From positions 71,771,992-71,835,991 of the forward strand of contig NC_060253.1 of the NCBI RefSeq assembly GCF_921293095.1: 64,000 nt of DNA. The letters run 5' to 3'. Origin of the DNA: Ischnura elegans. Taxonomy: Eukaryota > Arthropoda > Insecta > Odonata > Coenagrionidae. Positions 11,358-58,993 of the stretch are shown here, in pieces. How positions within the stretch are numbered: position 1 is the stretch's first letter; every line of letters starts with the position of its first letter. The notes beneath the pieces were generated by a model that made no database searches, had not been told where the DNA came from, and was given only the letters and a program-made list of their open reading frames with translations. The position numbers and the translations under genes were made by a program.

Positions 11358-11596
11358 TTCATGGTGAAACAAAAACACAGTACTATTCCACAAACTTTAT
11401 TTTAGCTGTCAACTAGTTTCGACGTTTACACCGTCATTATCAAGACTCTTTAGACTCTTCTATTAGTCTTGATAATGACGGTGTAAACGTCGAAACTAGT
11501 TGACAGCTAAAACAATGTGGAATAGTACTGTGTTTTTGTTTCACCATGAATATTTCTTCGTTCCACCAAGTAACGCCCAAATCAGTTGATTTTATA
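11358..11596 (+). mobile_element. Hammerhead foldback element E1 (Penelope-like, non-autonomous)
   Basis: Two inverted arms (11360-11449 and 11463-11548) match almost perfectly apart from a few indels near ACAAACTTTATTTT, and enclose a loop of about 13 bp. A one-sided tail follows the right arm (11549-11596, containing TTCCACCAAGTAACGCC and AATCAGTTGATTTTA). The whole is flanked by an 11-bp direct repeat, CCTACGAAGTC, at 11347-11357 and 11597-11607. Each arm holds a hammerhead motif, so both strands carry one. The tail is shared with element E2 at 23568-23697. Hammerheads of this kind are known in Penelope-like retroelements. The element encodes no protein. Confidence 0.75.
11466..11504 (+). 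ncRNA. Hammerhead-like ribozyme motif in E1 (a mirror copy at 11408-11446 minus)
   Basis: Stem I is GTC (11466-11468) with GAC (11502-11504). The core reads TTGATAA (11469-11475) where the consensus is CTGATGA. One T follows, then stem II GACG/CGTC (11477-11480, 11488-11491) with a 7-nt loop, then GAA, then a 2-bp stem III AC/GT closed by TA, and a cleavage-site triplet GTT ending at 11501. Two core positions have decayed (C to T, G to A), so activity is unlikely. The opposite arm carries the same changes. Confidence 0.6.
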
Positions 11597-12048
11597 CCTA
11601 CGAAGTCCTTCAGTCCAACGATTCGCTCGGAGTATACCTCTATGTGTATATATATTTCCTTAGTCAGAATTCGACCGATGAACAAATGCCGGCACAGATG
11701 AGAGAGATTGTACCGTAGACCGATAGTGGCGGCACACACTCCGCCGGAGTACTTTTCCTCCCGATAGTATGTACGCTCATGAGTTCATTGCCGTAGGGGA
11801 AGAGTGAAGGTGGTACTGGGCGTTTGTATCGAGGTTAAGATTATGCGGACCACTCTCGGGTTATGATCTCAGCAGAGAGAAGCCCATTGTCTGGGAGAAA
11901 AAAATGAATAAATTGGGGCAGTCTCAATTTCTCTTCGATCCACTCTTGGCATGCGAACATACCAACCGATCCCGGCATAGTGCCAACGAACGAGATCAAT
12001 TATGATGAACTTTCAGAGAAAATTTATGGGCGAAGTGTTCCGATAGCT

Positions 12049-12341
12049 GATTTTTCTTCCTCATAGGAAAATCTACTAGAATTGGTAGAATATTAATAGC
12101 GTATGCTTGGTTTCGCTGATGGTAGGACCTGCCCGCCTTGTGACGGTGCAGGATTCCTCGTCCTCTCCCTTCCTTCCCCGTCCTTCCCCTGGAGGCGTCG
12201 TCGGGCTCTCATCGCGGCGGCGCCTCCTTTCCTTGATCCTTCCCGTCCTTCCCCTTCTGGTGGTAGAGGAGAAGAGCTAACGCTTACAGTCCCTGCCCCA
12301 GGAGTGTACCCCGCGAGCCCATCCTAAGGGTTTCGTTCCAC
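12049..12341 (+). repeat. Repeat A, copy 1 (GC-rich interspersed repeat)
   Basis: Starts around GATTTTTCTTCCTCATAGGA and runs through a GC-rich centre (GAGGCGTCGTCGGGCTCTCA, GCGGCGGCGCCTCCTTTCCT) to GGGTTTCGTTCCAC. The reverse complement is found at 30619-32228, split by another element, and a diverged copy at 25096-25336. No open frame with a recognised domain and no polymerase III boxes were found. In the copy at 30.6 kb a 13-bp duplication (ACCATTAGGGCAG) flanks it, which suggests retroposition. The class is unknown to me. Confidence 0.7.
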
Positions 12342-14600
12342 CTGTCCTGAAAGCTGTAGCATTTTTCCTGAAACATACTTTAAGTGAACGTTAACGGAAT
12401 ACGGATTTTTGCATCAGACTCTTGGTCAAAAGTGAAATATACTTTTTTAAAGTCGCATTGAATAATATATGATATGAATTAATAATATTAATGTGCGTAT
12501 GGCTTTTGATAGCAATAAAATAATTAACTGTAGCTGGATTTTTGTGACAGCTGTTCACCATAACCGGTGTATATTGTATTTTGGTATAAAGGCATTTGAA
12601 CTGTCAGAAATATAAACCGAGCAAGAAAAGCACAGCCAGCTATTATCCCGTTCAATTCCATATGAAATAGAGGTTAGTCATTAAAAAAACAAAAGGTAAA
12701 AATATGAGTGAAAGTGTAAGTGAGTCAGGCCATGGAGGAAAAAGAATAATATCCTCTTTCAATGGACAAGGGTGAAAGTGATGGACATTGTGAGTATTAT
12801 AGAGTTGAGACAATGGAAATGAGTCACAGCGACTAAAAGAGCATAATACTTAATTATAAATAATAATGGGCTTACACGAATGATGCACATGGGTAGGTAT
12901 TTGAAAGGTTGTAAGTGACAAAGATGAAAAACTAAACGACTAGTTGAGTCCCCAAGAATTGTAGCAAAGAATGCGGCTATGTTACGACGACTTTAGTAAA
13001 ATGACCTTATTGTAGATCATAGATTTGAGTTTTGAACGTGAAATACAGATTAGGCAGCTGTTTAAAATTATAATGCTGATTCACATCATTCCAAAATTGA
13101 TCACAATAAGAAAAAAATATCTAGGTTCGGAAAATGACCTACAGACCTCAACATTTCCCGGAAACGGTAAAAAAATAATTTTATGCCGAGGATGAATTCT
13201 ATAAGCAATAATATTACGGAGGTAACAATAGAACCCTTTATCCCGGAGCAATGATCCAAAAAACCAAACACTCCTGGTCTAATTTATATGGTAAAAGAAT
13301 GTTTCTAAAAACAGTAAAAACTTTCTCCGTTCACGCGAAGGTCTGAAATAACCGTATTCAATGATACTACAAAATTTAAATTAATTCAAAAATAGAACAA
13401 CTATTTTTCAATAGAAAACAAATTGTAGCAAATATATCTCCGGATTTCATAACTAATATAATTTTTTTACCAAGAAAGGATATATCTTACTGTGATCAGT
13501 TATTAATCGTATCAGCTATTATTGATTTTAATAGATACGATAATTTTTTCTTAGGGTAACTAAAATCAGTCATTGTTTAAATAACTTTCCTGACTCCATC
13601 CTTGAGCTGGTGCATAAAGTTGCTTAAGGCATGGAAGAACCTATTTTTTGCAGCCTCTGACTTAAGCGAAGACATTATCCATTCTATTCGGGTGGGAGAA
13701 TTCAGTGACGCGGACTAACTAGGATAGATGGCCACTAGGTGAGGTGAAGTCACTATCGCGCAAGTGCCAGGTCGAGGCAGCCATTAATAACAGTGGAAGC
13801 ATCGTGGTTAACCATGCATTAATATACCTACTGCTTAGAATAACTTTGAAGATGCTTCCAAAGCTTAGGCTAGAATGATGCTCTGACGTAATAGATTAAG
13901 GGAAAGGAATTAAGGCTATTCCTCATATTAGAATGGAACTCAACATAAAGGAATATTAAATAAATTATTTTCAATGAACATAGCTTTGAGCAACTGTTCA
14001 AATCACTGGAGGTAACGGTCTAATAATTCAAAAAAGATGATTGGCCAAATGAAGGCCCGATGCGGGCCTTTGAAAACCATATAAAATCAGTGATCAGTGA
14101 ATGATATAGGTAAGAACCAGGTAAATACTAAATATTAATCGTACTTAATATTTACACTCGATAATGGAACCTAGATCAGCACTGTAATTATCAATCGGTC
14201 AGCTGTGCACCATAATTATTTTAAGATTACATTCATAAGCTACAGTTATATTCTTGGCAAAAGGATGTGGTATTACAGTAAATTCATTCTCAATGAATCA
14301 ATAATAAAAATAATAATAACATTATGTCCGAGCTAATATGCTTGAAAGTAATTTAGTTGTAAAAGGATCCAATGCAACCGGAGTATTGGCACACTGATGA
14401 CTGGATAAATGAAATATATAAAAAATTGCAAATAAGTTATGCTAAAATATCAGGAAATAATCTTAATAATGTTGGAGTACTGTTGGAACGCTGATCACCA
14501 TACTTTGGAGCAATAATACCTTTACAAGAACGAAAAAATATAATTATTCGACTATGGTAGAGAATATAATGATTTGTGGGGCAAAGACTAGGGCCATAAA
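12342..14600. other. No recognised feature
   Basis: AT-rich, few open frames, nothing recognised over 2.2 kb. Confidence 0.5.
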
Positions 14601-14607
14601 CGAAAGA

Positions 14608-14850
14608 GAAAGAAAATTAATTACGAGCCATAGAAATGGACTTTTGGCGAAGAGCCGCAAGAGTGTCCAGAAAAGACAAAATAAGAAATGATTAAACAAG
14701 AAAAATAATGGATAAGGATGTGGTGAATAATATCCAATAGAAGATTGCGATGGCTTGACAGCGTTGAAAGTATGGGGAGGAAAAAATTCCGAAAGCCGTT
14801 TTCAAAGGATCCGAGAAGGAGAAAGGCAGAAGGAAAAGACAAAGATGCGA
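14608..14850 (+). pseudogene. LINE ORF2 C-terminal fragment
   Basis: Reads RAIEMDFWRRAARVSRKDKI then RND, and after a 1-base shift TRKIMDKDVVNNIQ, a stop, then in another frame RRLRWLDSVESMGRKKFRKP. The order E-M-D-(F/Y)-W-R-R-A, S-R-x-D, then RLRW..(H/S)V..M matches the post-RT tail of endonuclease/RT-encoding insect LINEs. At least two frameshifts and a stop show it is dead. The 114-codon frame starting at 14745 overlaps its end and continues into unrelated DNA. Confidence 0.7.
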
Positions 14851-15704
14851 GAAGTCATAGTTTTTCAAACCCGATTACCAATAATTGTCACATTATCCTT
14901 AAAGCAGTTTCCACATTTTCTTATGCAAACTTATCTGGAATACGGAAAACCGTGATATATAAAAATAGCAAACATATTTTCCATTCCGGAAAGACCACAA
15001 GACTCGAAAATGAAACAAGTATACTACGCAGGAAAGTTTCCCTCACAAATTTAGTCTCACTGATTAAATATAAAAAATTGACTCCATAAATTAACACCAG
15101 CTACACGAATTGACGACAAAATGGAATAAAATAAACAAATTCGATAACTTATTAATACAAATGACAAATCTAAAACTAGGTAAGTAGATAATAATTTCTT
15201 CCATGCGAATTTACGCTGAAAAGGAGCAGCTGGAAATATATTTGGTCATCCTAAAGCCTAAAGCATAAGTTTTCCATGCAAGTAAACGCGTAAAGTAGCA
15301 CCTCGCGATGCTGCAACAACGCAGATACCTAACCCATCTGCGGAACATAAAGGAATAAATCATAAATTTAATGGGTGTCACTTTGCGTTATTATACGCTG
15401 ATTATAGAGCTGATGTGAGTGGAAGGGGTGATAAATACCGGCAAGCTTCTGGATAATTGTAGCCACGTCTGCGTGAAAGGAATACTTAATCGTGAATCAA
15501 CAAAGTCAAAGATATTGCGTCAGGACTTATCGCGATGGATTGGGGCGACAACCTACAGACCTTGGACGAAAAGTACACGCGCACACGATCTCTCTAATAC
15601 TTATGGAATCACTATAATTATCATTATTTATCTAAGGAATCACCATTTTCCTATTTTTCCATTATACTTGAAAGTAAGAACGGAAAAGGAAGACCTCACA
15701 TGAA
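14851..15704. other. No recognised feature
   Basis: AT-rich, short frames without motifs (for example 15419-15703). Confidence 0.5.
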
Positions 15705-16130
15705 ATACATGGAACAGGTAAAGAAGGACGTGAAAGAGAAGAAATACGTAGGTACGAAAAGATTAGCTGATAGTGGCGCAGCGAGGGGGGGTTTTGGGGG
15801 ATAAAACCCCCCCAGAGCTCATAGAAATTTTTAAGTTAAATCTATTTTACTTAATTGGAGTAATATTGCTCATAAAATAGTGTGAGGATTAATAAAATAT
15901 CCCTCAGAAGGCCATAAAAATCACCATGTTGAACCGTTTATCTTAATTTTTTCCGTCGCAGGGCCTCCGCACCTCCCGCTTACCCTGGCGGGTATGCAAT
16001 ACCCCAAGCCCCCATTATTAGTTGCGCCTGAAACCCCACCTAGCCTTAATTCCTAGCTGCACCCCTGGATAGGGGCATTGAGTGGAGAGCTGTGTCAAAC
16101 CAATCTTAGGATTGCTGACTAGTGATGTGA
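15705..16130 (+). pseudogene. LINE 3' stub interrupted by a hAT MITE
   Basis: The LINE tail (MEQVKKDVKEKKYVGTKRLA) runs to about 15773, is broken by a 294-bp insertion, and resumes at 16068 with GGATAGGGGCATTGAGTGG then AGAGCTGTGTCAAACCAATC and TTAGGATTGCTGACTAGTGATG, the same 3' tail as the copies at 5530-5750 and 58347-59030. GATAG is present on both sides of the insertion. Confidence 0.8.
15774..16067 (+). mobile_element. hAT MITE (same family as 58019-58312)
   Basis: Begins GTGGCGCAGCGAGGGGGGGT and ends AGCTGCACCCCTG. A G-run/C-run hairpin lies inside the left end (GGGGGGGTTTTGGGGGATAA, then AACCCCCCC). It aligns in reverse along its whole length with 58019-58312, which has clean 8-bp duplications. 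Here the 8-bp duplication is not intact; only GATAG is shared at 15769-15773 and 16068-16072. No coding capacity. Confidence 0.75.
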
Positions 16131-17281
16131 CGCGAAAATATGTATTTTTTTACCGAACCCGCTTTGGGGAAGATAAAAATAGTTTTTGGTGTAAAAAAAA
16201 GAATCCCCTTGAATCAAAATAAGTAAAATCATGACATAAACAGGAATTCAGATCTCATAAAGCACCACCTAAATGACATCTAAGGATAAGGATGGTTAGG
16301 TATGGAAGATATGCGTGCGAGAATGAGAAAAAATCACCACTTGCCTTTAACAGCAACTGCGATTTTTCCAGCCTTTTTCATGATAGTGATCACTAGCCAA
16401 CTCTAACTTTATTTATAGAAATGATGATTTTTTTCTTAATACGGTGTATACAGATATATTTTTTCTGTTAAAAACGATGAAAACATATTATTCTCAAAGT
16501 ATCAGAGTTGTTTTATAAAAATTCATTTTCCTGAAAGGGATTCACGAAATTCTCGATACGTAGAACAGTCATTGGCATTCACATCGTTTTATTTGCTAAA
16601 CATCACGGCAGAGATGATAGACGCCATATATTTGCAGGTTTCACGACCTTCAACAGTTATCATTAAAATTCTTCCAATAATTATGATGACTAGTCATAAA
16701 AGCAGTTATAATTTCAACTCGTAAAATACATGCAACAAAAGAAAACCTTATCAAATTTCCTCGATAAAATACCGTGATCGTGATAATCAAGGCTTGATTC
16801 AGAAAGCATCTCAAAGAAGTTGAGCATACTTCCTTGTTAAATTTCAAGACCAGCATCCAAGGGCTTTCCTTCCTAACAAACTGACACGTGTAGAAATTTC
16901 AAGTGTTGAATTTCATGATCAAGGAAATAGACTCACGTCAAACATAGGATAATATGAAATTGTATACATTGAATTTTAATCATTTTCCTGGACGGATCAT
17001 TCGCTATAACATTATTTTATGCAATTCTTAGGACTGACGTTCGCTTGCGATAGACGTACGTCATGCGAACCTGGTTGGTGATGTTGAATGTCCTCAGAGG
17101 ATACTTCCTAATTCGCCAATTCAACTGGTAATTCTTGTGTCCTCCTTTCTGTATGATTCCAATTCTTCCCCTGTATTTGAGACTGAATCGTGATTTCAGA
17201 AGCTAAAATACCGAGCGTCGGTTTAAGAATGCTACATAAAATATAATATTTCCTAGAATATGCCAATGGGAGAAAGAGTTG
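16131..17281. other. No recognised feature
   Basis: AT-rich, one 68-codon minus frame without motifs. Nothing recognised. Confidence 0.5.
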
Positions 17282-17289
17282 ATGAACAT

Positions 17290-17908
17290 CATAGGCGCCG
17301 ACTCCATGGGGCCTGAGGGGGCTCGAGCCCCCTCAATAATTCGTTTGGGGGGGCGGAGCCCCCCCAATAATTCAAGAAATTAATTAAGGTATGTAATGCT
17401 TTGTAAAATCACAAAAATATGTTGGTATTTTTTATTTTCCTTGTTTGACGATAGTTACCTTATAAAATAAATTCAGTGATGATATAAAACAAATAATTAT
17501 ACGGTATTAAACAGGTTAACTGAAAAAAGTGGTGTGAATCGGGATAGTGTTTCGAGGCTGCGACACACTTTGAACTTTTCCCGATGCGTGAACCTTCGGG
17601 TACAAACTGGCGGGCCAAGAGGGATTAGATTAGATTAGATTAGCCCGGTTGATTTAAATGGAAGAATGACTAATTTTATAAGAATGGAAGAATGACATAA
17701 AAAAATGTGTCAGGCTTGTAGAGTTTCCCGAAGTGTCGAGTTATAGAGAGTCGAGTTTTCGGGGTTCTAATATGGATCATATGACCCCTCGAAAAGGCTT
17801 TTAAAAAACTTTAAAACTCACTATTTTTGATCAAAAATTTAGAAAATTTCCCGAGGCAAGACCCGCGGTATGGGCCCCCCCAATATTTTTTACAAGTCGG
17901 CGCCCCTG
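17290..17908. mobile_element. Non-autonomous hAT element with perfect 8-bp duplication
   Basis: The left end CATAGGCGCCGACT and the reverse of the right end CAGGGGCGCCGACT agree at 12 of 14 positions. ATGAACAT flanks both sides (17282-17289, 17909-17916), a perfect 8-bp duplication. Just inside the left end are G-run/C-run hairpins (GAGGGGGCTCGAGCCCCCTC, GGGGGGGCGGAGCCCCCCC). At 619 bp and without a transposase frame it depends on an enzyme made elsewhere. It contains four ATTAG repeats at 17624-17643. Confidence 0.9.
17624..17643 (+). repeat. (ATTAG)4 tandem repeat
   Basis: Four perfect ATTAG units inside the hAT element. Confidence 0.95.
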
Positions 17909-17916
17909 ATGAACAT

Positions 17917-19520: not shown

Positions 19521-19528
19521 ATTATTCT

Positions 19529-20892: not shown

Positions 20893-21659
20893 TTGCAGCA
20901 GGTATGAGGTTAACCCAATATGCTTATTATCCTAGAATAATAAAGTATATGAGCAAAAACGTTACTAAAGGCGGATTGAACCTTCGTAGAGGGATGTGCG
21001 GTATTTATCGGTGTACCGGCTTATCCGGTTAATTTTCCCGATTATAGATACATATCAGTATATTTTCCAGTTAACATACCGGTTTATTAGAAATACTAGT
21101 CTCCAATGGATTCCTAAAACTGATATTATATTTGAACAGACTGCAGTTATTTGCAATTTTAGCAATGTAAATCTATGGCTATTGCTTAAAGTTCTTCACC
21201 ATTTTACATATGAGCCATTGAATTTTTTATGTTTTTACATTTTTTTAGGTGCAAACGAAACAGTTGATATATAAAAAAAACAAAGACGTTCAGTATTCAG
21301 GGAAATAGTTTTACGGAGTGGGTTTGTCGAAAGATGCCGATAAACATTCGTGGTTACTTAACAGTAGTAAACTATCATATTTTAAAATTTTTGCCGAAAT
21401 CCCACGTTGGAATATCAAAGGAAAAAATCATATAATTACATCGCGATACGAAACAGTCTCCCGAATCTGCGCCGAGAGCCGTGGACTTTTTAGCATCCTA
21501 ATATCTTCGGGAAAAATTGCTCATAGGTGACTATGCCTGTGATGATCTCTACCCAAACCTATTCAACTAGTTTTCGGGTTGGATCACTCTAGTAAGTGTG
21601 AGTGAAACTCAGTCTTTTGACACTTATGCACTTGTTAATATTCCACAAATTTTATTTTT

Positions 21660-21696
21660 ACCCAAAAGGTTTCAACACGTGTCATCACCAAAAGAA
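21660..21696 (-). ncRNA. Possible degenerate hammerhead motif
   Basis: On the minus strand GTGATGA (21682-21688), then a short ACACGTGT stem region, then GAAAC (21669-21673) followed by CTTTTGGG. It resembles the hammerhead cores elsewhere but has a G in place of the first core C and a very short stem II. Weak. Confidence 0.3.
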
Positions 21697-23180: not shown

Positions 23181-23567
23181 AACCACGATATGCGACCAAA
23201 CTCCTTTGAATACGCAGCACCAGGAATCGCTGTGACTCGACGCATAGTTACACAATACAAAAACCCGCGCGAGTTTATGTCTAAATGCATGAATGCCTTT
23301 GGTGGTCCGCAATAGAACATGTGCGAATGCACGAAATAAATTAGAATAGATTGTAGGTATTTCATTTTTGTGCAATTGTGCAAATAGGGTGGTTACACGG
23401 AGCATTTTGGCGTTCATCCAAGCATATATACACTCAATGTATATTAACTCATACGTGTTAATACATAGTGTAAACAGGCCTTCAGAGGGTTAAGTGTTGG
23501 GCAATGCACTGCAGCCTTTCGTGTCCAAAACAATGTTAAGTTTTTGTATTCTTATACCATACAATGT

Positions 23568-23697
23568 ATCTAAATAAAAGATGGTATCACTTTTCCACAA
23601 TATTATATCATATTATATTATATTCTGGAAAAGCGCTACCATCTTTTATTTAAATATGTCAAACTTCCACCACATAACGCCTGAATCTGTTGAACTT
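23568..23697 (+). mobile_element. Foldback element E2 (hammerhead family, core lost)
   Basis: Inverted arms around AAATAAAAGATGGTA and TTTTCCA (23571-23600 against 23632-23656) enclose an AT-only loop. A one-sided tail follows with TTCCACCACATAACGCC then GAATCTGTTGAA. Flanked by a 12-bp direct repeat, ACCATACAATGT (23556-23567 and 23698-23709). The tail matches that of E1 closely, so it belongs to the same family although no hammerhead core remains between the arms. At 130 bp it is the smallest member. Confidence 0.75.
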
Positions 23698-23709
23698 ACC
23701 ATACAATGT

Positions 23710-29744: not shown

Positions 29745-29945
29745 GGACGTCCATAGAATAATGATGAGGATCAAATGGAGTGACCGCATCTGAGGAAGTC
29801 CTAATAAGCGTATGAGAGAAAAGAACCTCGTAAAAACCTTAAGAAGAAGACGGGACAACCTAATCTGCCATATCTGGATGCTTAGTGGCCTGATGAAGAC
29901 GATGGTCGAGGCACAAGTGGATGGCATCAACGGAAAAGGATGACC
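29745..29945 (+). pseudogene. LINE 3' stub
   Basis: Reads WDVHRIMMRIKWSDRI, a stop, then EKNLVKTLRRRRDNLICHIW, GLMKTMVEAQVDGINGKG and PRMKSPL. Aligned with 58347-58699 it is the same post-RT tail, with stops and truncated at both ends. A 206-codon frame on the opposite strand (29481-30101) is an accident of this sequence. Confidence 0.75.
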
Positions 29946-30676
29946 TCGAATGAAATCCCCTCTTAAGAGTTCTGGATAACCTTTACAGTTTGTGGTTATT
30001 TCCTTCACTATTTTATTTATGTTAGAACACAAAACACAAAAAAATTTCCTAATAAGGGCTACTGATTGTACAGTGGCGGAAAAAATTAACGCAAAGCTCA
30101 TTGGCGTCTGAAAGCGGCCAGTTCAGGAAGTACTACTTGTCTTCCAAAATTTTCCCCCTCGTAATGCTCTCATACAGCCGGGAATTTTAAAAGCCTTATG
30201 CCCGTTTTACTGTCGAAATAATCACATCCGTCGCATTATGACAACACGCAAAAGATCCAGCCACGAATTCTTCCCCATATTTTCCGAAGTATACTTCGCC
30301 CAACACTCACCTAGAATGGAGTTTACTCTAGTCGGGACAAATGTGGACACAGCCGATATATTGGGTATTGAGACTGCGTCGGAGCACAATCATTCCGGTG
30401 GTGTCGTGGGTAAAGTAGCATGCAATGAATCACAGGTTCCAAGGATCAAGTCTCAGTGGCGGATGATTTGATGCTGTACACACACAGCGGACATTTTCTG
30501 ATCTTAAAACTTCGAAAAACCTATCACAAGGTCAAGAGGATGTTGCACGACTATTGGATTCTTACGCGCTTATTTATTTGTCGAATTCAACTCCTATATT
30601 TCGTAACCATTAGGGCAGGTGGAACGAAACCCTTATGACGGGCTCGCGGGGTACACTCCTGGGGCAGGGACTGTAA

Positions 30677-32507: not shown

Positions 32508-32578
32508 GCATCGGTGGTTCAGTGGTAGAATGCTCGCCTGCCACGCGGGCGGCCCGGGTTCGATTCCCGGCCGATGCA
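32508..32578 (+). tRNA. tRNA-Gly (GCC)
   Basis: A 71-nt sequence that folds as a complete tRNA. The acceptor stem GCATCGG pairs with CCGATGC. A D arm GGTTCAGTGGTAGAATGC contains the A box. The anticodon arm CCTGCCACGCGGG has anticodon GCC. The T arm CCGGGTTCGATTCCCGG contains the B box GGTTCGATTCC. The discriminator is A (32578), with no encoded CCA and no intron. It decodes GGC/GGU glycine codons. A T7 run directly downstream serves as the polymerase III terminator. Unlike the SINE heads in this window, all stems pair, so this is very probably a functional gene. Confidence 0.96.
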
Positions 32579-32588: not shown

Positions 32589-32627
32589 GCCGTAAAAATA
32601 ACTTTTTGACATAGTAAATAATGAGAA

Positions 32628-32824
32628 AGTCTAATGAAGATTAGGAGAGAAGAGAAACCTCATAAAAATATTGCCAAGAAGACGGAGCAACCTTATAGGC
32701 CACACCTGGAGATATGATTGCCCGATGAGGACAATCGTCGAGGGAGAAGTAGATGGTTTTATAAGGAAGAACAGGTATAAAGGATGTGAAAGAGAAGAAA
32801 TATGTAGGTGCGAAAAGATTATCT
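32628..32824 (+). pseudogene. LINE 3' stub, part 1 of a split copy
   Basis: The LINE tail (EKRNLIKILPRRRSNLIGHT with stops, then GCERE..GR..KDVKEKKYVGAKRL-type sequence) runs to 32824, where a 1.1-kb insertion begins. The remainder resumes at 33956. It is the same family as 58347-58699. Confidence 0.75.
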
Positions 32825-33309
32825 TTTTATAAAATCAAATTAAGTGCTATTAATGTATTAATATAGAAATGTTTAATTTAAATTAAAGTTGATACTTAAA
32901 TTCACATTGCAAATTCCACTAAGAATGAAGCATAAATTTGTGCAAATTTTTTGATAATAGAAATAAAGATTCATATTAATTTTGAACCTGAACTTAAACT
33001 CAATAATCATTTTTAATAAGATTTTGAGGTTTGGTCATTTAAATGCATAATGCATAAATACGCAAGATCAATCCGTCAAATGTAAATAACATAAAACTCG
33101 CCAAATTATAATTCATGTTTTGACGACATTGACGATGACGATTGACGATTGAAATTGACGATGAAACTCTCTCAAGTGACGTATTGCAACTTCTGCTCAA
33201 CCTATAAATAAATATAGAAATATGCAAATATCCTAATGACAAAAATTATTGGTTGTAAATGTGATAAGAGGCTTGTGCTGATTTAAAGGTTGTAATATAA
33301 TTTGTATTA

Positions 33310-33515
33310 TCTCTATCGTAACAGGCTCAACTTTGTGGAGGTTCATAAATAAAAGCGAACAAACTATGTATAAATCCACCAATTTATTTATGTGGTACTA
33401 CTAGTTTCGACGTACCAGTACTAGGTACCTGATGATGACGCCGCTGCGACGAAACTAGTCGTACCACATAAATAAATTGGTGGATTTATACATAGTTTGT
33501 TCGCTTTTATTTATT
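33310..33515 (-). mobile_element. Hammerhead foldback element E3
   Basis: Inverted arms (33343-33412 and 33449-33515) share CGAAACTAGT, GTACCACATAAATAAATTGG and TGGATTTATACATAGTTTG. A tail lies on the left (33310-33342; on the minus strand CCTCCACAAAGTTGAGCCTG). It is flanked by a 13-bp direct repeat, ATAATTTGTATTA (33297-33309 and 33516-33528). The right arm contains a well-preserved hammerhead on the plus strand, while the left arm keeps only the GAAAC half. Tail, arms and target duplication match the organisation of E1, E2 and E4. Confidence 0.8.
33424..33465 (+). ncRNA. Hammerhead ribozyme, well-preserved core (E3)
   Basis: Stem I GGTAC (33424-33428) pairs with GTACC (33461-33465). The core CTGATGA is at 33429-33435, followed by one T. 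Stem II GACGC/GCGAC (33437-33441, 33446-33450) has loop CGCT and one A-A mismatch. GAA follows, then a 2-bp stem III (AC/GT) closed by TA. The predicted cleavage is after the C of GTC at 33460. Very short stem III is known for hammerheads in Penelope-like elements. The extra T before stem II departs from the textbook core and might lower activity. Confidence 0.75.
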
Positions 33516-33948
33516 ATAATTTGTATTAATTCACACTATGACATTGCAGCACTACAACCAGTACTCCAATACCGGATACACCAGCAATCCAAAGACACCG
33601 AGATAACAGAGATTAACAGCACTGCGAGAACATCACCTTCAACAGCAATAACACACCAGCATTACACGGTGGTCTACGTGGGGTTTTGCCGGTTTCCCTC
33701 ACGTCTCGGACGAACGTCGGACCAATAGCCATCCCGGAGGAAAAGATTTCCGGATTTTTTTGATTTTTTCCGTACCTGCTATATGCTCACAAACAATGTA
33801 TAAATAATAAAAAATATGACTAGCCCTGAAGAGGAAAGTATTCTTATAACGGGGACCTTACTGTATATATGTATTATAATATTCTACCTCACTATGTAAA
33901 CATTCATGTAAAACTTGCAGTATGGAAATAAACTTTATTTTGAATTGA

Positions 33949-34010
33949 ATTATCTGATATGAGAATGGAATGGAGAGCTGCATCAAACCAATATTAGGAT
34001 TGATGACCGG
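33949..34010 (+). pseudogene. LINE 3' stub, part 2 of the split copy
   Basis: Resumes the LINE tail (GAATGGAGAGCTGCATCAAA, then CCAATATTAGGATTGATGAC) interrupted at 32824. Confidence 0.75.
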
Positions 34011-35593: not shown

Positions 35594-35685
35594 AATTGCT
35601 CTACCTAATTCACTAACTCTTGGTTAACTATGTGGTATTCCATTATTTCCTGGATATAGACAGTTACTTATACCACTTATTTTAT

Positions 35686-35735
35686 AAGATCGCGACCCGG
35701 GTTTCAATGAGTAATCATCATCATCAGGCGCTAAT
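35686..35735 (-). ncRNA. Hammerhead ribozyme, left arm of E4 (opposite strand)
   Basis: Mirror copy on the minus strand: core CTGATGA at 35721-35727 and GAAAC at 35701-35705. The GTC cleavage triplet is at 35694-35696. It uses the same stems II and III as the right arm. Stem I has one change (AATTAG for AATAAG). Confidence 0.78.
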
Positions 35736-35961
35736 TATAATTTGTTTATCTACCTAGTTACTTGATGAATTTTAAAACGGACGCCAGAATAGGTGAAAAG
35801 GATGGGTAGAGGTATTCATTTATAAGGGTAGTATCTTGATTTTCAATAATTTTTAAAATTTCTAACTGTTCCCTAGAATCCAGTTCTCGGCGGTCATTGC
35901 AAAAATTTAAAATATTCATTTAAAAAAAACAAACAAATAATAATTAAATAAACAAATTATA

Positions 35962-36013
35962 ATAAGCGCCTGATGATGATGATTACTCATTGAAACCCGG
36001 GTCGCGATCTTAT
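35962..36013 (+). ncRNA. Hammerhead ribozyme, right arm of E4
   Basis: Stem I ATAAG-CGC (35962-35969) pairs with GCG-(AT)-CTTAT (36004-36013), with AT bulged. The core CTGATGA is at 35970-35976, then one T. Stem II GATGA/TCATT (35978-35982, 35987-35991) has loop TTAC, one G-U pair and the rest Watson-Crick. GAA is at 35992-35994. Stem III ACC/GGT is closed by CG. The predicted cleavage is after the C of GTC at 36003. All core residues are intact apart from the additional T seen throughout this family. Confidence 0.8.
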
Positions 36014-36059
36014 AAAATAAGTGGTATAAGTAACTATCTATATCCAGGAAATTGCTCTA

Positions 36060-36799: not shown

Positions 36800-37310
36800 T
36801 TCAAAAGAATTTGTACACCACTTCCGCAAGTTAATTAATTTAACAGGCTAATAAGGGAAAGGATATCCACCAAAAGATAATAAACTAAAGTAAACAAGAC
36901 AAGGCCATCACAGAGGAACGTTTATTTAAGAGAAAACCTTAAATTACTTTTCGCTCAAGGCATCGGTACGCACTCTACTTAGCTATGAAAATAACGGAGT
37001 CATTATCTCCTAGGTACCAACACAATCGTCTAAAAAAACATGTCCTAAAGGATTTTAAATGCAATCCAAAAAGAACTAAGAAAGTTAGGACCATCCTCCA
37101 CGCGCCATATACCATTATTATTCATGCCATTCAGTCCATAATGAAATTAAGGAAAGGTACGTCAACCTAGCATACGACAGCAGACTTTGAGAGGATGGTG
37201 AGATATTGATTGTACGAGGTACATTCTAGGTACTTCATCTAAGAAAGACAAATTCGATTCCTAGACACGCTGATTAGTTTTAATCCAAAGCCAAGGGTCA
37301 GATATCGACG
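36800..37310 (+). repeat. Repeat B, copy 1
   Basis: Shares with 42680-43860, in the same order and orientation, CAAGTTAATTAATTTAACAG-type, TTCGCTCAAGGCATCGGTAC, AAAATAACGGAGTC, TGTCCTAAAGGATTTTAAATG, TTAGGACC and GATTCCTAGACACGCTGATT. The copies are well diverged. No coding motif. It may be an old segmental duplication or an unclassified repeat. Confidence 0.65.
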
Positions 37311-42679: not shown

Positions 42680-43860
42680 AATTTTACGACTTCCCCGTAA
42701 GTTAAAAAATTAAACAGGTTAAAAAGGCAAATAAAATCAATTAAAAGATGATATTATAAAGAAAATACGCCAATTTTATCACTAAGTAAAGTTTTTATAT
42801 GAGAAAATCTGCGTTTTTTTTCGCTCCAAGCATCAGGACGAACTCTGTTTAGCAATTAAAATAACGGAGTCTAGGCCTTCTAAGGATTTTTCAGCGGATA
42901 TTTTAACTAATAACATCTGATTAGCAATGAAAACACTTCCTTACTACCACAATTTATTTAAAATTACTACCGGTTTCGGCTCTCACGCCATTATCAAGTT
43001 CATTAATAACGTACATAATGAACTTGTGATCTATTCGGAAGAATTTGTCCTAAAGTATTTTAAATGATAGTCACAAAGCGTTAAGGAAATCAGGACCTCT
43101 ACTTGCCAGCTATTGTTAGTGTTCTTGCCATTCCGTTAATAATAACACTGGTCAACAAAAAAATTTCTGTCCTAGGAATATTACTGGGTGATCCTAAACC
43201 TGTTTTCATGCTGATTCAGAATCTGGACTCAGGATTTTTCTGTCACGTTTAGTTTCCTTAGGGTAAACCGGATTAAATATGCGTTCAAGGACGTTTTAGC
43301 AAATAAATCGTGCATATAAAAAATGTGAAAAATGGGTGCTTTTATGGTTACGCATATTTAATATCAGGAAAGTCCCTACTCAGCTTCTAGTAGTAATATC
43401 CTAACATGTAGCTGAACTTTCCTCATTTTTTACATGCGTAAAATATCCTGATGGAAACGCTCTTTTTCCAATTAAAGTCAACTGTTGTTGGAATTCCAAA
43501 TCCTCCAGCACTTCCCTTATCTAATAATACCTAGGAAAGGATCATGATGGAGCATTAGGACCAATCCATACGTGCCAGCTATTGCTAGTGTTCTTGCCAT
43601 TCAGTCAATAATAACTGATCAACAAAAATATTTTTTTTCTATCCATAGGAATATTGCTGGGTGATACTAAACGTGTTTTTCATGCTGAATCTGGACTCAG
43701 GTGAATAGGCCGACAGGTATCGCGTCAACTTTGCGGCTGAAAAGATGGTGAGACGTAAATTTTACGAGGTACAATCTGGGTAATTCATCAAAAAAAGACT
43801 AATTCGATTCTTAGACACGTTGATTAGTTGTAATTATTTTAATCCATTGATTCAGATGTT
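42680..43860 (+). repeat. Repeat B, copy 2 (with insertion and internal duplication)
   Basis: Aligns in pieces with 36800-37310 but is longer. It is interrupted by the hammerhead-type sequence at about 42935-43035. It also contains an internal direct duplication: 43103-43240 against 43557-43701, sharing TGCCAGCTATTG.TAGTGTTC, TTGCCATTC and GAATATT.CTGGGTGAT.CT. The final block TTCGATTCTTAGACACGTTG matches the end of copy 1. Confidence 0.65.
42935..43035 (-). mobile_element. Partial hammerhead foldback element E5
   Basis: On the minus strand it carries the degenerate core TTGATAA (42991-42997), one T, stem II GGC/GCC with loop GTGAGA, GAAAC (42973-42977) and stem III ACC/GGT, then AGTAATTTTAAATAAATTGTGG-like arm sequence. 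The second arm is reduced to AATGAACTT, which still pairs with AAGTTCATT. The same two core changes (C to T, G to A) occur as in E1. It lies inside repeat B copy 2, where copy 1 has no equivalent. Confidence 0.6.
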
Positions 43861-47760: not shown

Positions 47761-47892
47761 CGAAGTTAGGGGTTGATACCGTACGGCGTATCCCAATCGA
47801 CTATGCAGTTCACAACAAATCCTTATCCAATACTAGCAGTCCACCAGGCGTTGCTCGAGAAGAATGGGAAAATGATAAACCCGACTCCCTCC

Positions 47893-49848: not shown

Positions 49849-50190
49849 ATGGCTGGCTCTAAGGCAATAATTTACAAATCGTATATTCAACCAATATTAT
49901 TATGTGCCGTACCCACGTAGCGTGGTTTGCTGACGAAAACAAAATTGAGAAAAATTTTTTTTACGATACATTTTTAAAATAAGACAATGTTTAAGCGACC
50001 AAACGGAGTAAGCGATCAATAAGGTGACAGCCACCCGGGAAATAATACTGAAACGAGCGAATAACTATTATGAAGGGCTAGCAGATAACGGGAACGAAGC
50101 CACACAAGGATTAACAAGGTTCAAAGATAGGTACAAAGACAGATTCCGTGGACCGGGTGGATATTTTAAACCTATGACGAAATTTAATTA
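49849..50190 (+). pseudogene. Jockey-type LINE reverse-transcriptase C-terminal fragment
   Basis: Reads AGSKAIIYKSYIQPILLCAV, PT, a stop, RGLLTKTKLRKIFFTIHF, a stop, then after a frameshift TATREIILKRANNYYEGLAD and ATQGLTRFKDRYKDR. The pattern K..IYK.YI.PI(L/M) followed by T...(I)..(A)..(Y/F)YE.L matches the end of the RT domain and C-terminus of Jockey/X-element LINEs, a different lineage from the RxxW.GH tails elsewhere here. Several stops make it a fossil. Confidence 0.7.
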
Positions 50191-54200: not shown

Positions 54201-54927
54201 GTGAGAAGCATTCCATACCATTGCAGGAATAAGAACTGCTCTACCCATGTAATTACTCTCATATTGTAAGTACTCTCTTTGGTGTAAGTATTGTCCTACT
54301 GAAATATGTACGTGGAAGATGATAACCTCACTCTTCTCGGAAAAGCTCATTTGGCAATGATATAGTGCCGTTTTGCTGAAAACCCTAAAAATAACCGTAG
54401 AACTTCGTTTAAAAGTTCTACAGTCATTGCAAAATTAAAGGAATACATTGATGAACTGACATTTAATGCAACAGTAACAATTAAAAAAATTAAAATTGCA
54501 CTGGCAATAATAAACTGACCGCAAAAGTACGCCGGGATTAACTGCCATCGGGGAAAAGGGTCGAGGATTATATTTGCCCAGTTGCCGAGGAAAGGGTACC
54601 TGGTCAGTCCCAAGCCGAAAAAAAAACTCCGTACAGGGCGAAAGCAACTTCCCGCGAAAGAGCTCGGCGCGAAAAGGTTAACAACGGCTCTGTAATGAAG
54701 CCACAAATTTAGCTATTTTCAACGGAAAAAAATTTGGTCGCTAAAATCACTCCGACATGCTCTGCTTTGAACAGCTGTAAAAATTATATTAACGTATTCC
54801 ATGCTCTGTATGGTATCCTATCTTATAGAGTACATGCTTAATAATGAATATCAACAGTTTTTGGTTGATTTGCGCTAACTTCATTTTTCGACTTTTGGCC
54901 AGCTTTTTTGGATTTTGGCCCACTGTG
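51222..54927. mobile_element. Candidate 3.7-kb DNA transposon with CACAGTG ends
   Basis: The left end at 51222 (CACAGTGGGCTAGAATCGAA, then AAAAGCTGGCCAAAATTCG) is repeated in reverse at the right end, finishing at 54927 (CACAGTGGGCCAAAATCCAA, then AAAAGCTGGCCAAAAGTCG). That is about 35 identities in 39. CGA lies outside both ends (51219-51221, 54928-54930), a possible 3-bp duplication. The interior has GC-richer patches (51950-52020, 52380-52560, 52740-52820, 53450-53690, 54540-54690) and short frames (up to 119 codons), none recognisable as a transposase. The CACAGTG start recalls Transib/RAG-type ends, but Transib duplicates 5 bp, so the superfamily is open. It could also be two unrelated short copies facing each other. 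Confidence 0.5.
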
Positions 54928-56984
54928 CGACAGTATATATATATAAATTTCTACATCATTCCCGACTTCTGAAAGGACAGTGAAGGATTTTGATCCTGTT
55001 TCAGTTAAAACGCTACTAGATAATAATAATTATTATTAATCTACCTGCGATTTAAGTTTCAAAAATGACGCCGAAGCCATAGGCGAAACCTCAATGGCTT
55101 GTTTCCAAACACGATTTTCTGACAACGGTTTTCTTACACGGCAAAACCTCATTCACAACAAATATACTTGGGAAACAGCCTAAATTATTTAATATTCCTT
55201 TGCATGGTAATTAAATTGGCACACAAACGGCGTATCAATCGTTACTATTGGTTAGTTCCAAGAGATAATTGAACTTATCTCAACTAATTGCCGTCTTACG
55301 TCCATTTGTGGCAAAGAAAGAGAAATCATGAGGATTCATATATACTGTCAAAAAATGGCTTTTGTGCTATAGGGAAGTGAAGTTTTAACAAAGAAACTTA
55401 ACATTTAAAGTTCTTAATTTAAGGTATTTTGTGTGTTTGTAATTGCTGTGTATTTCTGAAAGCAAGTTATTTATGGTGTATGTTAGTTTTTTTATGTATG
55501 TAAAATGAAAGGATTGTTAAAATTGAATACTCAAGCGAAAATAGAATAAAAATAATCACTGAATTGAATTAAATAAAATTTGAATGATAAAATTATGGTA
55601 CCAGTCATGTAGGAACAATAAGTAAAAATACCCCGAAAACTTCCTCGGAACGAAGATGTCGAGCGGATATCAGGGAGTCAGTCCACTTCACGCAAACCTA
55701 GGGCAGATAATTTCGTCTAAGAGCAATGACTTGGACGCGGCAGCGATTTCGAGGGGATTCGTAAAAGCTTCGCATCTCAATCTCCAATTCTATCACTCGA
55801 CATCGGCAAAAACATAGGTTTTAGGGCGATATTATTATTATTATTATATTTTGTTCTTTGATTTTCTTCAGTTTTCACTGAGTAGCTTTAGTGTTAAGAG
55901 CACGGGTTCTCACCAAGGTAACTCTTTACTGTTGAATTGGGTTGAGAAATTTTCTCGTGATATGACAGGTTGAAATTATTACAGCCTTTTGCAGTTTGAT
56001 GTATGTATTTGGATGGAGGTTGAGTATTTTGAAACTATTTTGTATATGTTTTGGAATGATACCGGTAGCTGAGATGACAATTGGAGCTATATAAACCTGT
56101 TCCATATTCCATATTCTTTTTATTTCTATTGCCAATTCTTGGTACTTGTTAATTTTTCCTGTAATTGTCTTTTCGATGTTATGCGACATGTTATTATTAT
56201 TATTAAAGTATTCTAGCGATTAAGGTAGATTTCCATGGAGCACCTTATAAGTATTCTGATAACCTACCCTTCCTTCAAGAACGTCCATCTTCGCAATAAG
56301 GCCTACTCTCTTTCATATCCTATTCTCTTCCTCACTCTCCCTTGTTAGCCCAACATTCTACCCTCATAAACTGTTTTCAACATACCCTGCCCGCTAAGTA
56401 CTCGCTCTATCCATACCTTCTGTCTCCTCCATATCTCACTCATCTCGAGGCTGCCTCTCCTCACCCACCATGTCCATCACTTTGTCGTTCCACCTCCCTC
56501 CTCCACTCCGTCCACTTCACCTTCTCCATTTAAGATAATGGTGAAAGTATTATGGAAATAATGATTCCCGAACAAATATAAAATACCACCGTTTGACCGG
56601 TAGATGCATCCTCTTCATACCCACACGTTGACAATTCCAATCTCTCGCAAAAAACATAGCCGCTATAATACATTTGAGACCAGTGTAAATGGAGAAGTTA
56701 TGTCTCCTCCCGACACGGAGAACCTGTCTATTCCACTGATTTTGTAAAAGGGATACTATAAATGTGTGTATAAGCGGAATAAAAGTAATTCATCAACAAA
56801 ATTATACTAATTTAATCATTATTTCAATTAAAATAAAGTTAAATAAATAATTTTAATAAATAACTAAAAGGAAAAAAAATTAAATAATAATAAATTAAAC
56901 TATAACGTAATTTTAAAGATGGTTGATTTTAGTCCTACTAAATTTATAAAATGAAAGTAATCATAGTAAAAAATATATTATTTA
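54928..56984. other. No recognised feature; simple repeats
   Basis: AT-rich. ATT repeats at about 55833-55850 and 56190-56203, and a pyrimidine-rich stretch at 56260-56530 whose open frame (63 codons) is low-complexity. Confidence 0.5.
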
Positions 56985-57265
56985 AGGAATATTTCTCGGG
57001 TTTTCCACCGGGTATGATTTTGGGTAATTGCTCCCAACGTTTCAACGGCTGAGTCTGCCATTGTCTTCTTTACGGTATTTTCTTTATTCAAACAAAACAC
57101 CGTGATGAATGGCTTTAGATTATACTCCTGAAGACGATGGCAGACTCAGCCGTTGAAACGTTGAGAGCAATCACCCAAAACCACATCCGGTGGGAAACCA
57201 GAGAAAATTTCCTTCGAACTACACGCCGAGAAAAAACTAAAATTCTACATACATTATTATTATAG
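56985..57265 (+). mobile_element. Hammerhead foldback element E6
   Basis: Arms 56992-57069 and 57129-57207 are inverted copies sharing GCAGACTCAGCCGTTGAAAC then GTTG.GAGCAAT.ACCCAAAA and GGTGG(G)AAA. The right tail (57208-57245) contains CTTCGAACTACACGCCGAGA then AACTAAAATTCTA, like the tail of E7. The plus-strand core CTGAAGA (57128-57134), C, stem II GATGGC/GCCGTT (two wobbles) and GAAAC (57155-57159) form a hammerhead-like motif. The left arm has lost the CTGA part. No clean target duplication was found. Confidence 0.65.
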
Positions 57266-57283
57266 GGTACCGCAACATAGTTT

Positions 57284-57471
57284 TCCTTTTTTTTTATTCT
57301 AAAACCACCGGATACAGCTCTTATTGGCCATTTTACACCGGGGTGTTTAACAAATGTAACAAGTAAACGTACACAAACAACCATGCCCTGGACCAGGGAA
57401 ACCTACCCAGGCGGGACTCGAACCCGCGACCTTTTGTTTGGCAGGCGAAGACGTTACCCCACCGCCACCGA
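57284..57471 (-). mobile_element. SINE family 1, copy b
   Basis: Minus-strand copy with TCGGTGGCGGTGGGGTAACG, the B box GGTTCGAGTCC (plus-strand 57414-57424), GGTTTCCCTGGTCCAGGGCA, and a 3' end AGCTGTATCCGGTGGTTTTA followed by an A-rich tail. It aligns over its full length with 5041-5235. Confidence 0.85.
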
Positions 57472-57506
57472 GGCCGGCAAAACTTTTTATTTTTTTTTTG
57501 TCGACA

Positions 57507-57541
57507 ACGACAAAAAGTTTTTTCGACAAAAAGTTTTTTCA
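57507..57541 (+). repeat. Two-copy 18-bp tandem repeat
   Basis: CGACAAAAAGTTTTTT occurs twice in a row just upstream of the SINE head (minus orientation). Confidence 0.85.
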
Positions 57542-57640
57542 AAACTTATTAAAACCCACTGTATCGATCATTGTATCGACCCATCAGAAACTTTTTACTT
57601 GTTTTTTTTAATAATGTAAGCACATATCTAAACTTCTGTT

Positions 57641-58010
57641 TCACACAATTTTGAAGACCAAGCCATGTAGGTGACGTCCCCCACTCTTCAGACAATGAGT
57701 AAACCATTTTCTGGCGTTTGCCACGGCTGTTACCAGCATATCAGGGGGTATGCTGGCAAATTCATCCCGAATGTTGGTATTCAAAGCTTGCAGGGTCCTT
57801 GGACTGTGCACATAAACATGAGATATCAAAAAATTCCATTGAAAAAATCACAAGGGGCCAAATCAGGAGAGAGGGCCGGCCACTCCAAATCGCCCCTAGT
57901 TGAGATGAAGGAAGTTTTCCTTCAAAACAGCCATCTATGCTCTTGAAGTGTAAGCCGACTGAACGACGCATGGTGGCGATTGAATTTTGCAGAAACAAAA
58001 CTTTATAGTC
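57641..58010 (-). pseudogene. Tc1/IS630-type transposase C-terminal fragment
   Basis: On the minus strand one frame gives PALSPDLAPCDFF (around 57860-57900), the block with the conserved SPDL.P.D near the last catalytic residue of IS630/Tc1/mariner-type transposases. A frameshift follows, then ISHVYVHSPRTLQALNTNIR, DEFASIPPDMLVTAVANA and HCLKSGGRHLHGLVFKIV to a stop at 57641. The order (PRTLQ.L...I, IPPDML, SGGRH) is typical of the C-terminus of a widespread arthropod family. The N-terminal half is absent, and the hAT MITE at 58019 abuts the 5' side. Dead copy. Confidence 0.8.
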
Positions 58011-58018
58011 ACGCACCC

Positions 58019-58312
58019 CAGGGGCGCAGGGGTTTTAGGGGGGTTTTTAGGCACAACTAATACTGGGGTGTCTGGGGGTGTGGAATACCCGCCAGGGTAA
58101 GCGGGAGGTGGGGGGGCACTCCTTCAGAAAATTGTCAAGATAAATGGTACAAAATGGTGAGTTTTACGGCTTTCGAAGGGATATTTTATTAATATTTACA
58201 CTATTCTGTAGGTAAGTAAAATTAATCCAATTAAGTAAAATGGATTAAACTTAAAAATTTCTGAGCTCTGGGGGGGTTTTATCCCCCAAAACCCCCCCTC
58301 GCTGCGCCACTG
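58019..58312. mobile_element. hAT MITE with perfect 8-bp duplication
   Basis: Ends CAGGGGCGCAGGG and, reversed, CAGTGGCGCAGCG. Flanked by ACGCACCC on both sides (58011-58018, 58313-58320). A C-run/G-run hairpin lies at the right end (GGGGGGGTTTTATCCCCC). It aligns in reverse with 15774-16067. At 294 bp without a frame it must be moved by a hAT transposase encoded elsewhere. The clean duplication suggests it is one of the younger insertions in the window. Confidence 0.92.
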
Positions 58313-58323
58313 ACGCACCCTAC

Positions 58324-58346
58324 ATTATTATTATTATTATTATTAG
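58324..58346 (+). repeat. (ATT)n microsatellite
   Basis: About seven ATT units between the hAT MITE and the start of the LINE stub. Confidence 0.9.
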
Positions 58347-58699
58347 AGTGGGCAAGAGTGGAAGCATTCGATATGTGGTGCTACCGAAGAATGATGAGGA
58401 TAAAATGGATTGACCGTGTAAGTAACGAGGAAGTGCTATGAAGAGTGGGAGAAAAGAGAATCCTCCTAAAAACCTTAAGCAGAAGACGGGACAACTTAGT
58501 TGGGCACATTTTGAGGCACGATGGCCTGATGAAGACTACCGTCGAATGACAAGTGGAAGGGAAGAGGGCAAGGGAAGGCCCCGAATGAGTCACATAGGAC
58601 AGATTATGAAGGATGTAAAAGAGAAGAAATACGTCGCTAAGAAAAGGCTAGCGGATAGCAGAGAGGAATGGAGAGCTGCGTCAAACCAATCTAAGGATT
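58347..58699 (+). pseudogene. LINE 3' stub, best copy in the window
   Basis: Reads VEAFDMWCYRRMMRIKWIDR, VSNEEVL, a stop, RVGEKRILLKTLSRRRDNLV, GHILRHDGLMKTTVE, a stop, QVEGKRARGRPRMSHIGQIM, KDVKEKKYVAKKRLADSREE and WRAASNQS. This is the classic post-RT tail of endonuclease/RT-encoding LINEs (M.CYRRM.RI.W.DRV.NEEVL; L.GHI.RH; G.RGRPR). Two stops. It is interrupted at 58699 by foldback E7, and its last bases resume at 58994-59030. It serves here as the reference for the stubs at 5530, 15705, 29745 and 32628. Confidence 0.88.
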
Positions 58700-58993
58700 T
58701 AAAATTTTAGGCTCTCCCGGCTTATAGATTGATGAAAAATTTCTCGGGATTCCCACCGTGTGTTATTGAGTTAATTCTCCTAACGTTTCAATGGCTGAGT
58801 CTGCCATCGTCTTCAGGGGTTAACTCTTAATGGTGACCATACCATATTATAGACCATATTATATATATAAGAGACCGTACCATTAAGAGTTAACCCCTGA
58901 AGACGATGGCAGACTCAGCCATTGAAACTTTGGGCGAGCTTTGGGGGAATTAACCCAATACCACACCCGATGAGAATCCCGAGAATTTTTTAT
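58700..58993 (-). mobile_element. Hammerhead foldback element E7, inside a LINE tail
   Basis: Arms 58728-58840 and 58878-58990 are inverted copies around a loop of AT repeats. A tail lies on the left (58700-58727; minus strand ATAAGCCGGGAGAGCCTAAA then ATTTTA, like E6). The duplicated target is the LINE tail itself: CAATCTAAGGATT (58687-58699) and CAATCTTAGGATT (58994-59006), 12 of 13. Both arms carry hammerhead-like motifs of the CTGAAGA type. Confidence 0.82.
58768..58826 (-). ncRNA. Hammerhead-like motif in the left arm of E7
   Basis: On the minus strand, stem I GAGTTAA (58820-58826) pairs with TTAACTC (58768-58774). The core is CTGAAGA (58810-58816) plus one C. Stem II GATGGC/GCCATT has loop AGACTCA. 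GAAAC (58785-58789) follows. The right arm carries a similar motif on the plus strand (CTGAAGA 58897-58903, GAAAC 58924-58928). The core has A where most hammerheads have U at the variable position. No clear UH cleavage triplet is visible, so activity is uncertain. Confidence 0.55.

Follow-up and report, generated by a model that had tools for sequence, protein, structure and literature searches.

A 64,000-nt stretch of the Ischnura elegans genome (contig NC_060253.1; hereafter the window, whose coordinates are used throughout and within which all locus comparisons were made) contains six full foldback loci which are probably insertions of Penelope-like elements (PLEs) in which nothing but the pseudo-long terminal repeat (pLTR) was copied, as two head-to-head units that enclose little or no open reading frame (ORF). 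The loci are best read as separate insertions by several PLE families, and we infer that a PLE protein was the agent. An initial annotation of the window had proposed at least six foldback loci, with hammerhead-type motifs in all but E2, and a partial one at 42935, and had linked them to Penelope. All six were recovered as full loci (E1, 11347-11607; E2, 23556-23709; E3, 33296-33528; E4, 35594-36059; E5, approximately 56985-57250; E7, 58687-59006), the partial locus, E6, proved to be a fragment, and the Penelope link is supported by the hammerhead type, the one-sided tail, the outward-facing inverted arms, the target site duplications (TSDs) and the spacing of the ORF start, all as published for PLEs. 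None of the loci contains an ORF for reverse transcriptase and GIY-YIG endonuclease, as an autonomous PLE would, and all are too short to hold one. The window itself is eukaryotic in character, with just four frames of at least 120 aa opening with ATG, GTG or TTG.

Inverted arms are present at all six full loci and rank among the ten longest inverted repeats listed for the window. Identity between arms is 97% in E3 and E4, 88% in E5 and 87% in E2; the arms of E1 and E7 align in two pieces each (96% and 95%, and 95% and 86%, respectively). The tail, ascribed earlier to the better-preserved loci, was found at six of six and always on one arm only: the right arm in E1, E2 and E5, the left arm in E3, E4 and E7. 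Tails span 33-46 nt (E1, 46; E2, 42; E3, 35; E4, 44; E5, 37; E7, 33-35), the value for E5 depending on an outer end estimated to lie at 57244-57250. The sense strand of the hammerhead-like motif points outward in all ten motif-bearing arms (five full loci), E2 being judged by its tail alone. Measured from the GAAAC of this motif, one arm ends at 57-69 nt and the other at 89-104 nt in each of the five GAAAC-bearing loci. E2 is without GAAAC, yet it too has one tailed and one tail-less arm.

TSDs of 10-14 bp flank five of the six full loci, in agreement with the repeats noted earlier at five. Those of E1 to E4 are exact, with lengths of 11, 12-13, 14 and 10 bp (that of E2 reaching 13 with the preceding T). 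Compared with 3000 random places, the longest exact boundary matches of these four were equalled at 0, 0, 0 and 5 places, respectively. The flanks of E7 read CAATCT(A/T)AGGATT, 12 of 13 bp being alike; with its one mismatch, this repeat is not significant in the exact-match test (264/3000). E7 interrupts a repeated 3′ end resembling that of a long interspersed nuclear element (LINE), and a paralogue of this sequence near 16080-16127 is uninterrupted, presenting a single CAATCTTAGGATT followed by nearly the same continuation, that is, a paralogous empty site. Copies of the LINE-like 3′ end lie at 58420-58700 (the host of E7), 5551-5736, 29792-29953, 32616-32817, 15682-15773, 33956-34001 and 16080-16127. 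"LINE 3′ end", like "tRNA-derived SINE" below, is a label given by reading of repeat fragments.

Inverted repeats bordered by TSDs are also the hallmarks of miniature inverted-repeat transposable elements (MITEs) derived from ordinary DNA transposons. If the loci were of this kind, their hammerhead-like motifs would be due to chance, and the lack of a hammerhead match in Rfam (see below) would be in keeping. We consider such an origin very improbable, given that the TSDs are 10-14 bp and of unequal length, that the tail is one-sided, that the distances from GAAAC are fixed, that an ATG stands in frame and that matches to a hammerhead descriptor exceed those in shuffled sequences.

The tails occupy the place of an ORF start. 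In E1 to E4, no more than 5 nt separate an ATG from the end of the tail-less arm (determined by hand), and the tail carries the frame on; the resulting MNISSFHQVTPKSVDFI of E1 and MSNFHHITPESVEL of E2 agree in frame. Between E1 and E2, 29 nt of tail are 83% identical (E 0.006-0.012 in a comparison confined to the window), and the E5 and E7 tails align with each other. In E5 and E7, the ATG falls within stem II of the predicted hammerhead. The E5 frame reads MADSAVETLRAITQNHIRWETRENFLRTTRREKTKILH; relative to it, E7 shows an in-frame stop and a length difference.

These positions can be compared with those in PAc, the Poseidon element of Anolis carolinensis and, per its authors, the first PLE active in vitro (PMC11167929). 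The PAc hammerhead overlaps the ORF start, with the cut 26 nt downstream and an internal start of reverse transcription at 111-118; two internal reverse transcription start sites delimit the published PLE tail of 30-40 bp (PMC11167929). In E5 the distance from the A of the ATG to the predicted cut is likewise 26 nt, and the tail ends 108-114 nt from the ATG (107-108 nt in E7). Unlike in PAc, the ORF start of E1, E3 and E4 is not inside stem II and would lie some 44-52 nt after the predicted cut (44, 52 and 50 nt, respectively, by hand from coordinates). PAc also differs in being an autonomous element with a full protein (PMC11167929).

Position and frame fit the tail as the start of a PLE ORF; protein similarity was negative broadly and weakly positive for E5 alone. 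The start of the E5 frame, MADSAVETL, was aligned with 12 PLE N-termini, a narrower test made after a comparison with 105 N-termini had failed, and its mean alignment was equalled by 4 of 2000 shuffles. These 12 proteins were selected from 240 returned because the L[YHF]G[EK] motif is preceded in them by 25 residues or more. Six of them contain M-x(4,7)-ET, in all six cases as ETS, which is how GAA ACx TCx would read; counted by methionine, the pattern follows 7 of 20 upstream of L[YHF]G[EK] versus 3 of 124 downstream. The six proteins sharing this N-terminal pattern are P0187, P0132, P0155, P0208, P0216 and P0234, and one of the six comes from Anolis carolinensis and is perhaps PAc itself. 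From the protein sequences, it looks as though M-x(4,7)-ETS were dictated by the overlapping hammerhead GAAACxTC. At the opposite end of the protein, the 53-codon frame in the E4 spacer may represent the C-terminal end of an upstream tandem PLE copy. Its peptide scored weakly against a C-terminal PLE profile (109/5000 shuffles as good), was not above shuffles against whole PLE C-ends (76/200 as good) and had no credible match in Pfam.

In published accounts, PLE hammerheads are minimal forms lacking helix III (PMC7229834, PMC7761336); helix III is nearly absent and dimeric cleavage has been reported (Cervera and de la Pena 2014; Lunse 2017; via PMC7761336). A descriptor of this Penelope type was used to scan the window: CTGANGA, 8-32 nt, GAA, a palindrome starting with AC (the collapsed helix III), then any base other than G. 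It matched five times, always within E3, E4, E5 or E7 (at 33429, 35970 and 57128 on the plus strand; at 58816 and 35727 on the minus strand). Among 200 dinucleotide shuffles, 190 had no match and 10 had one. The palindrome following GAA is ACTAGT in E1 and E3, ACCCGGGT in E4, ACGT in E5 and E7, and ACCGGT in E6; counting E6, 10 of 11 GAAAC-bearing arms continue in this manner, the exception being the short arm of E7. Five further GAAAC-plus-palindrome sites occur elsewhere in the window, bringing the total to 15, a count that shuffles can also reach (mean 10.5, maximum 19); thus, what matters is the position of these palindromes, not their count. Stem II fitted best in the same register in six of six cases, starting one base past the core and ending right at GAAAC. 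The fit was better than shuffles in E5 (89/5000 as good) and E7 (43/5000) and borderline in E4 (238/5000).

Taken together, a hammerhead motif is likely in E4, E5 and E7 and possible in E3, while E1 and E6, which have CTTGATAA and no intact core, are degenerate. The earlier assignment of hammerheads to the arms may hold in the four loci with descriptor matches; E2, for which a loss had been noted, has no motif. Helix III would be near-absent here, as in the minimal PLE hammerheads; ribozyme activity at these loci is predicted, and the palindromic helix III would suit a dimer. Some miRNA families also appeared in the Rfam scans; they were rejected as reflecting long hairpins only.

The loci had been described as one dispersed family, something their sequences do not bear out. 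Arms fall into at least three types: E1/E3, which are weakly alike, E4, and E5/E7, the E4 and E5/E7 arms being unlike the rest. The arms of E4 and E2 have no match in another full locus, apart from that between the E1 and E2 tails. For E1 and E3 the likeness is limited to 40 nt at 80% (E 0.01), around GTTTCGACG, and the spacers are 17 and 34 nt, respectively; these two loci may be distant relatives. E5 and E7, the one clearly related pair, share arms but differ at the inner junction: the E7 arms are paired 18 nt beyond the hammerhead core, the E5 arms part at the core, and the spacers measure 44 and 61 nt. Decay of the E5 short arm could lie behind part of this difference. Because copying of a whole foldback should leave the junction unchanged, the difference speaks against the MITE copying that the earlier label implied. 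With at least three arm types and differing inner junctions in E5 and E7, the loci look formed at insertion and not copied as one MITE.

A true non-autonomous foldback family, MITE- or SINE-like (SINE, short interspersed nuclear element) and propagated whole by PLE enzymes acting in trans, would nonetheless have the common architecture, small size, lack of protein and TSDs seen here. The likeness between the E1 and E3 arms would fit it as well, and in Adineta vaga non-PLE DNA was integrated between pLTRs in trans (PMC3846280). Such a family should combine shared sequence with a constant inner junction, a combination not found among these loci; the diversity of arm types, the E5/E7 junctions (allowing for decay of E5) and the location of the tails where autonomous PLEs have their ORF starts render it improbable. 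Metazoan non-LTR retrozymes, small circular RNAs with hammerheads, overlap the loci in motif, size (150-450 bp) and TSDs, being small protein-less repeats with type I hammerheads and a proposed PLE helper (PMC7229834). In retrozymes the repeats are direct and in tandem and the type I hammerheads are canonical, whereas the loci described here are inverted and their motif is minimal, so that membership in this class is scarcely credible.

The Penelope elements of Adineta vaga already provide a precedent for paired, inverted pLTRs accompanied by TSDs and a 31-bp tail (PMC3846280). There, pLTRs are inverted head to head, with TSDs of 8-10 bp, absent in some copies. Resemblances to the loci studied here are that the tail is optionally on one member of the pair, that palindromes occur at the inverted junction and that the pLTR contains the first ORF codons, as it would here. 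Adineta copies enclose an ORF or captured DNA, or else are solo pLTRs, whereas little or nothing lies between the pLTR pieces here; the part of the Adineta description available mentions no hammerhead. ORF-less inverted pLTR pairs as a class were not found in the titles and abstracts searched, which is no proof of their absence.

We propose that a PLE protein would make a staggered break, giving rise to the TSD, and that reverse transcription of the pLTR RNA would start internally, at one of two fixed sites near the ORF start, some 60 and 100 nt downstream of the hammerhead GAAA. The far-site cDNA, comprising arm and tail, would go to one end of the target, and the near-site cDNA, an arm without tail, to the other. 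Both cDNAs would run toward the 5′ end of the RNA and be joined in the middle, which would leave the sense strand outward and the centre variable. If each break end primed on sense RNA, the arms would come to lie head to head with their sense outward, both outer ends would be fixed and the centre would be free.

Several results weigh against the interpretation of the loci as PLE insertions primed from both ends. The peptides of six tails (E1 to E5 and E7) gave a negative result against 105 PLE N-termini, a database search with the E5 start found nothing, and E7 was negative against the narrower set of 12 N-termini as well; even for E5, the best single score against the 12 was moderate (60/2000 shuffles as good). 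No Pfam match, and hence no PLE domain, reverse transcriptase or endonuclease, was obtained in the 10 frames tested out of 138 frames of at least 70 aa in the window. E5 is without a convincing TSD, showing just a 7-nt match (76/3000) beside an ATT-rich stretch. The resemblance between E1 and E3 leaves some room for a family. Stem II is unsupported against shuffles in E1 (759/5000), E3 (1811/5000) and E6 (3433/5000). The Rfam hammerhead models were unmatched on the window (E≤1) and at E3 and E4, the two loci rescanned singly (E≤10). The initial annotation had named a lack of covariance-model scores at the loci as grounds for giving up the idea, and literally this is what was found; we did not take it as decisive because the PLE hammerheads of the literature are minimal forms that lack helix III. 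As for the mechanism, PAc showed no strand difference in the start of reverse transcription in vitro (PMC11167929), so that symmetric pairs would be expected; tail-plus-tail or short-plus-short pairs number 0 of 6, every full locus having one long and one short arm. Finally, the Adineta authors prefer self-priming (PMC3846280).

In a self-priming scheme, the same PLE insertions would acquire their second arm when the first cDNA snaps back and is copied, synthesis halting short of the tail because of protein or RNA bound there. This scheme is quite possible, although we would stop short of calling it likely. Besides being the proposal of the Adineta authors, it accounts for exactly one tailed arm in six of six loci better than two-end priming does; arms are alike within an element (97% in E3 and E4), and the unpaired spacers of E4, E5 and E7 would be the loop. 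It is confronted with the extension of both target strands by PAc (PMC11167929) and with the argument, made by the Adineta authors themselves, that arms made by self-priming from a sense template would be joined tail to tail and not head to head, which is why an antisense template was proposed (PMC3846280). To keep priming from both break ends on sense RNA, one end would always have to use the far site, giving the tail, and the other always the near site, with E2 arising from ribozyme-cleaved RNA. We advance this version, in which the ORF-less pairs would record PLE integration at a staggered break, tentatively and regard it as rather doubtful. E2 would be a cleaved-template case because its arms stop 44 nt before the ATG, within the 44-52 nt separating predicted cut and ATG in E1, E3 and E4; it is a single instance, in AT-rich sequence. 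The positions of all features are collected in the table.

Table. Features of the foldback loci (window coordinates; a dot marks features without strand)
Feature	Position	Strand	Remark
E1 TSD, left copy CCTACGAAGTC	11347..11357	.	0/3000 random places equal
E1 short arm, PLE pLTR antisense on plus strand; degenerate hammerhead-like CTTGATAATGACG..GTCGAAACTAGTT	11358..11447	-	
E1 tail arm, sense; GAAAC at 11492, ATG at 11546	11465..11550	+	
E1 tail; reads MNISSFHQVTPKSVDFI from ATG 11546	11551..11596	+	
E1 TSD, right copy	11597..11607	.	
E2 TSD, left copy ACCATACAATGT	23556..23567	.	
E2 inverted arms without loop or hammerhead; inner end lies 44 nt before ATG 23656	23568..23655	.	
E2 tail, reading MSNFHHITPESVEL	23656..23697	+	
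E2 TSD, right copy	23698..23709	.	
E3 TSD, left copy TATAATTTGTATTA	33296..33309	.	
E3 tail; minus strand MNLHKVEPVTIE from ATG at 33346	33310..33344	-	
E3 tail arm, sense on minus strand; GAAAC at 33408; without 5′ part of hammerhead	33345..33412	-	
E3 short arm; hammerhead pattern CTGATGA..GAAACTAGTC at 33429-33460	33429..33514	+	
E3 TSD, right copy	33515..33528	.	
E4 TSD, left copy AATTGCTCTA	35594..35603	.	5/3000 random places equal
E4 tail; minus strand MEYHIVNQELVN from ATG at 35643	35604..35647	-	
E4 tail arm; hammerhead pattern from 35727 down	35648..35752	-	
E4 spacer 53-codon open frame; stop precedes tail-arm pLTR	35758..35919	-	spacer 35753-35944
E4 short arm; hammerhead pattern from 35970	35945..36049	+	
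E4 TSD, right copy	36050..36059	.	
E6 fragment: single pLTR-like arm, degenerate CTTGATAATGG..GCCGAAACCGGT, few bases of second arm	42935..43026	-	
E5 short arm	56985..57068	-	
E5 tail arm; hammerhead pattern from 57128; ORF start ATG 57137	57128..57213	+	
E5 tail, end uncertain (57244-57250), within open frame MADSAVETLRAITQNHIRWETRENFLRTTRREKTKILH	57214..57250	+	
E7 TSD, left copy CAATCTAAGGATT	58687..58699	.	paralogous empty site near 16080-16127
E7 tail, sense on minus strand	58700..58732	-	
E7 tail arm; hammerhead pattern from 58816 down; ATG at 58807	58733..58834	-	
E7 short arm	58879..58993	+	
E7 TSD, right copy CAATCTTAGGATT	58994..59006	.	

On its right side, from about 43046, E6 adjoins a different repeat (43046-43097 versus 37041-37092, 77% over 52 nt), which matches no other foldback locus. 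A possible eighth pLTR-like sequence, a single-arm fragment with TGATGACACGTGTTGAAACC..AAATTTGTGGAATATTA, lies at 21610-21690 on the minus strand; it matches E1 at 91% over 23 nt and has no second arm among the inverted repeats listed. Elsewhere in the window, a tRNA-derived SINE-like repeat is present at 57280-57475, 5040-5225, 60437-60625 and 63241-63335, its copies being 72-79% alike. Within it, 57404-57474 receives a tRNA score in Rfam (33.1 bits) and was not called by ARAGORN. A tRNA-Gly (GCC) at 32508-32578 on the plus strand was found by Rfam (66.7 bits) and called by ARAGORN too. Outside the window, the genome contigs yielded one decayed PLE, with reverse transcriptase and a C-terminal part and no usable 5′ end, on a contig (L001) filed under a Pseudogulbenkiania metagenome-assembled genome and evidently representing eukaryotic contamination. 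No PLE was found in the viral contigs, where two hammerhead patterns gave 0 matches; 19 matches to the tail pattern there were presumed to be due to chance.

The main interest of these loci is as material for testing PLE integration. The mode of PLE integration and the frequent inversion of pLTRs are still under debate, with self-priming on antisense RNA favoured in 2013 and internal starts with both strands extended reported in 2024. A fixed division of start sites between the two break ends, if true, would account for the head-to-head pLTRs with no need for the antisense template of the earlier proposal. ORF-less insertions hold both junctions, both start points of reverse transcription and the centre within 130-460 bp; with all of these available for each insertion, a genome-wide set could separate the models by counting.

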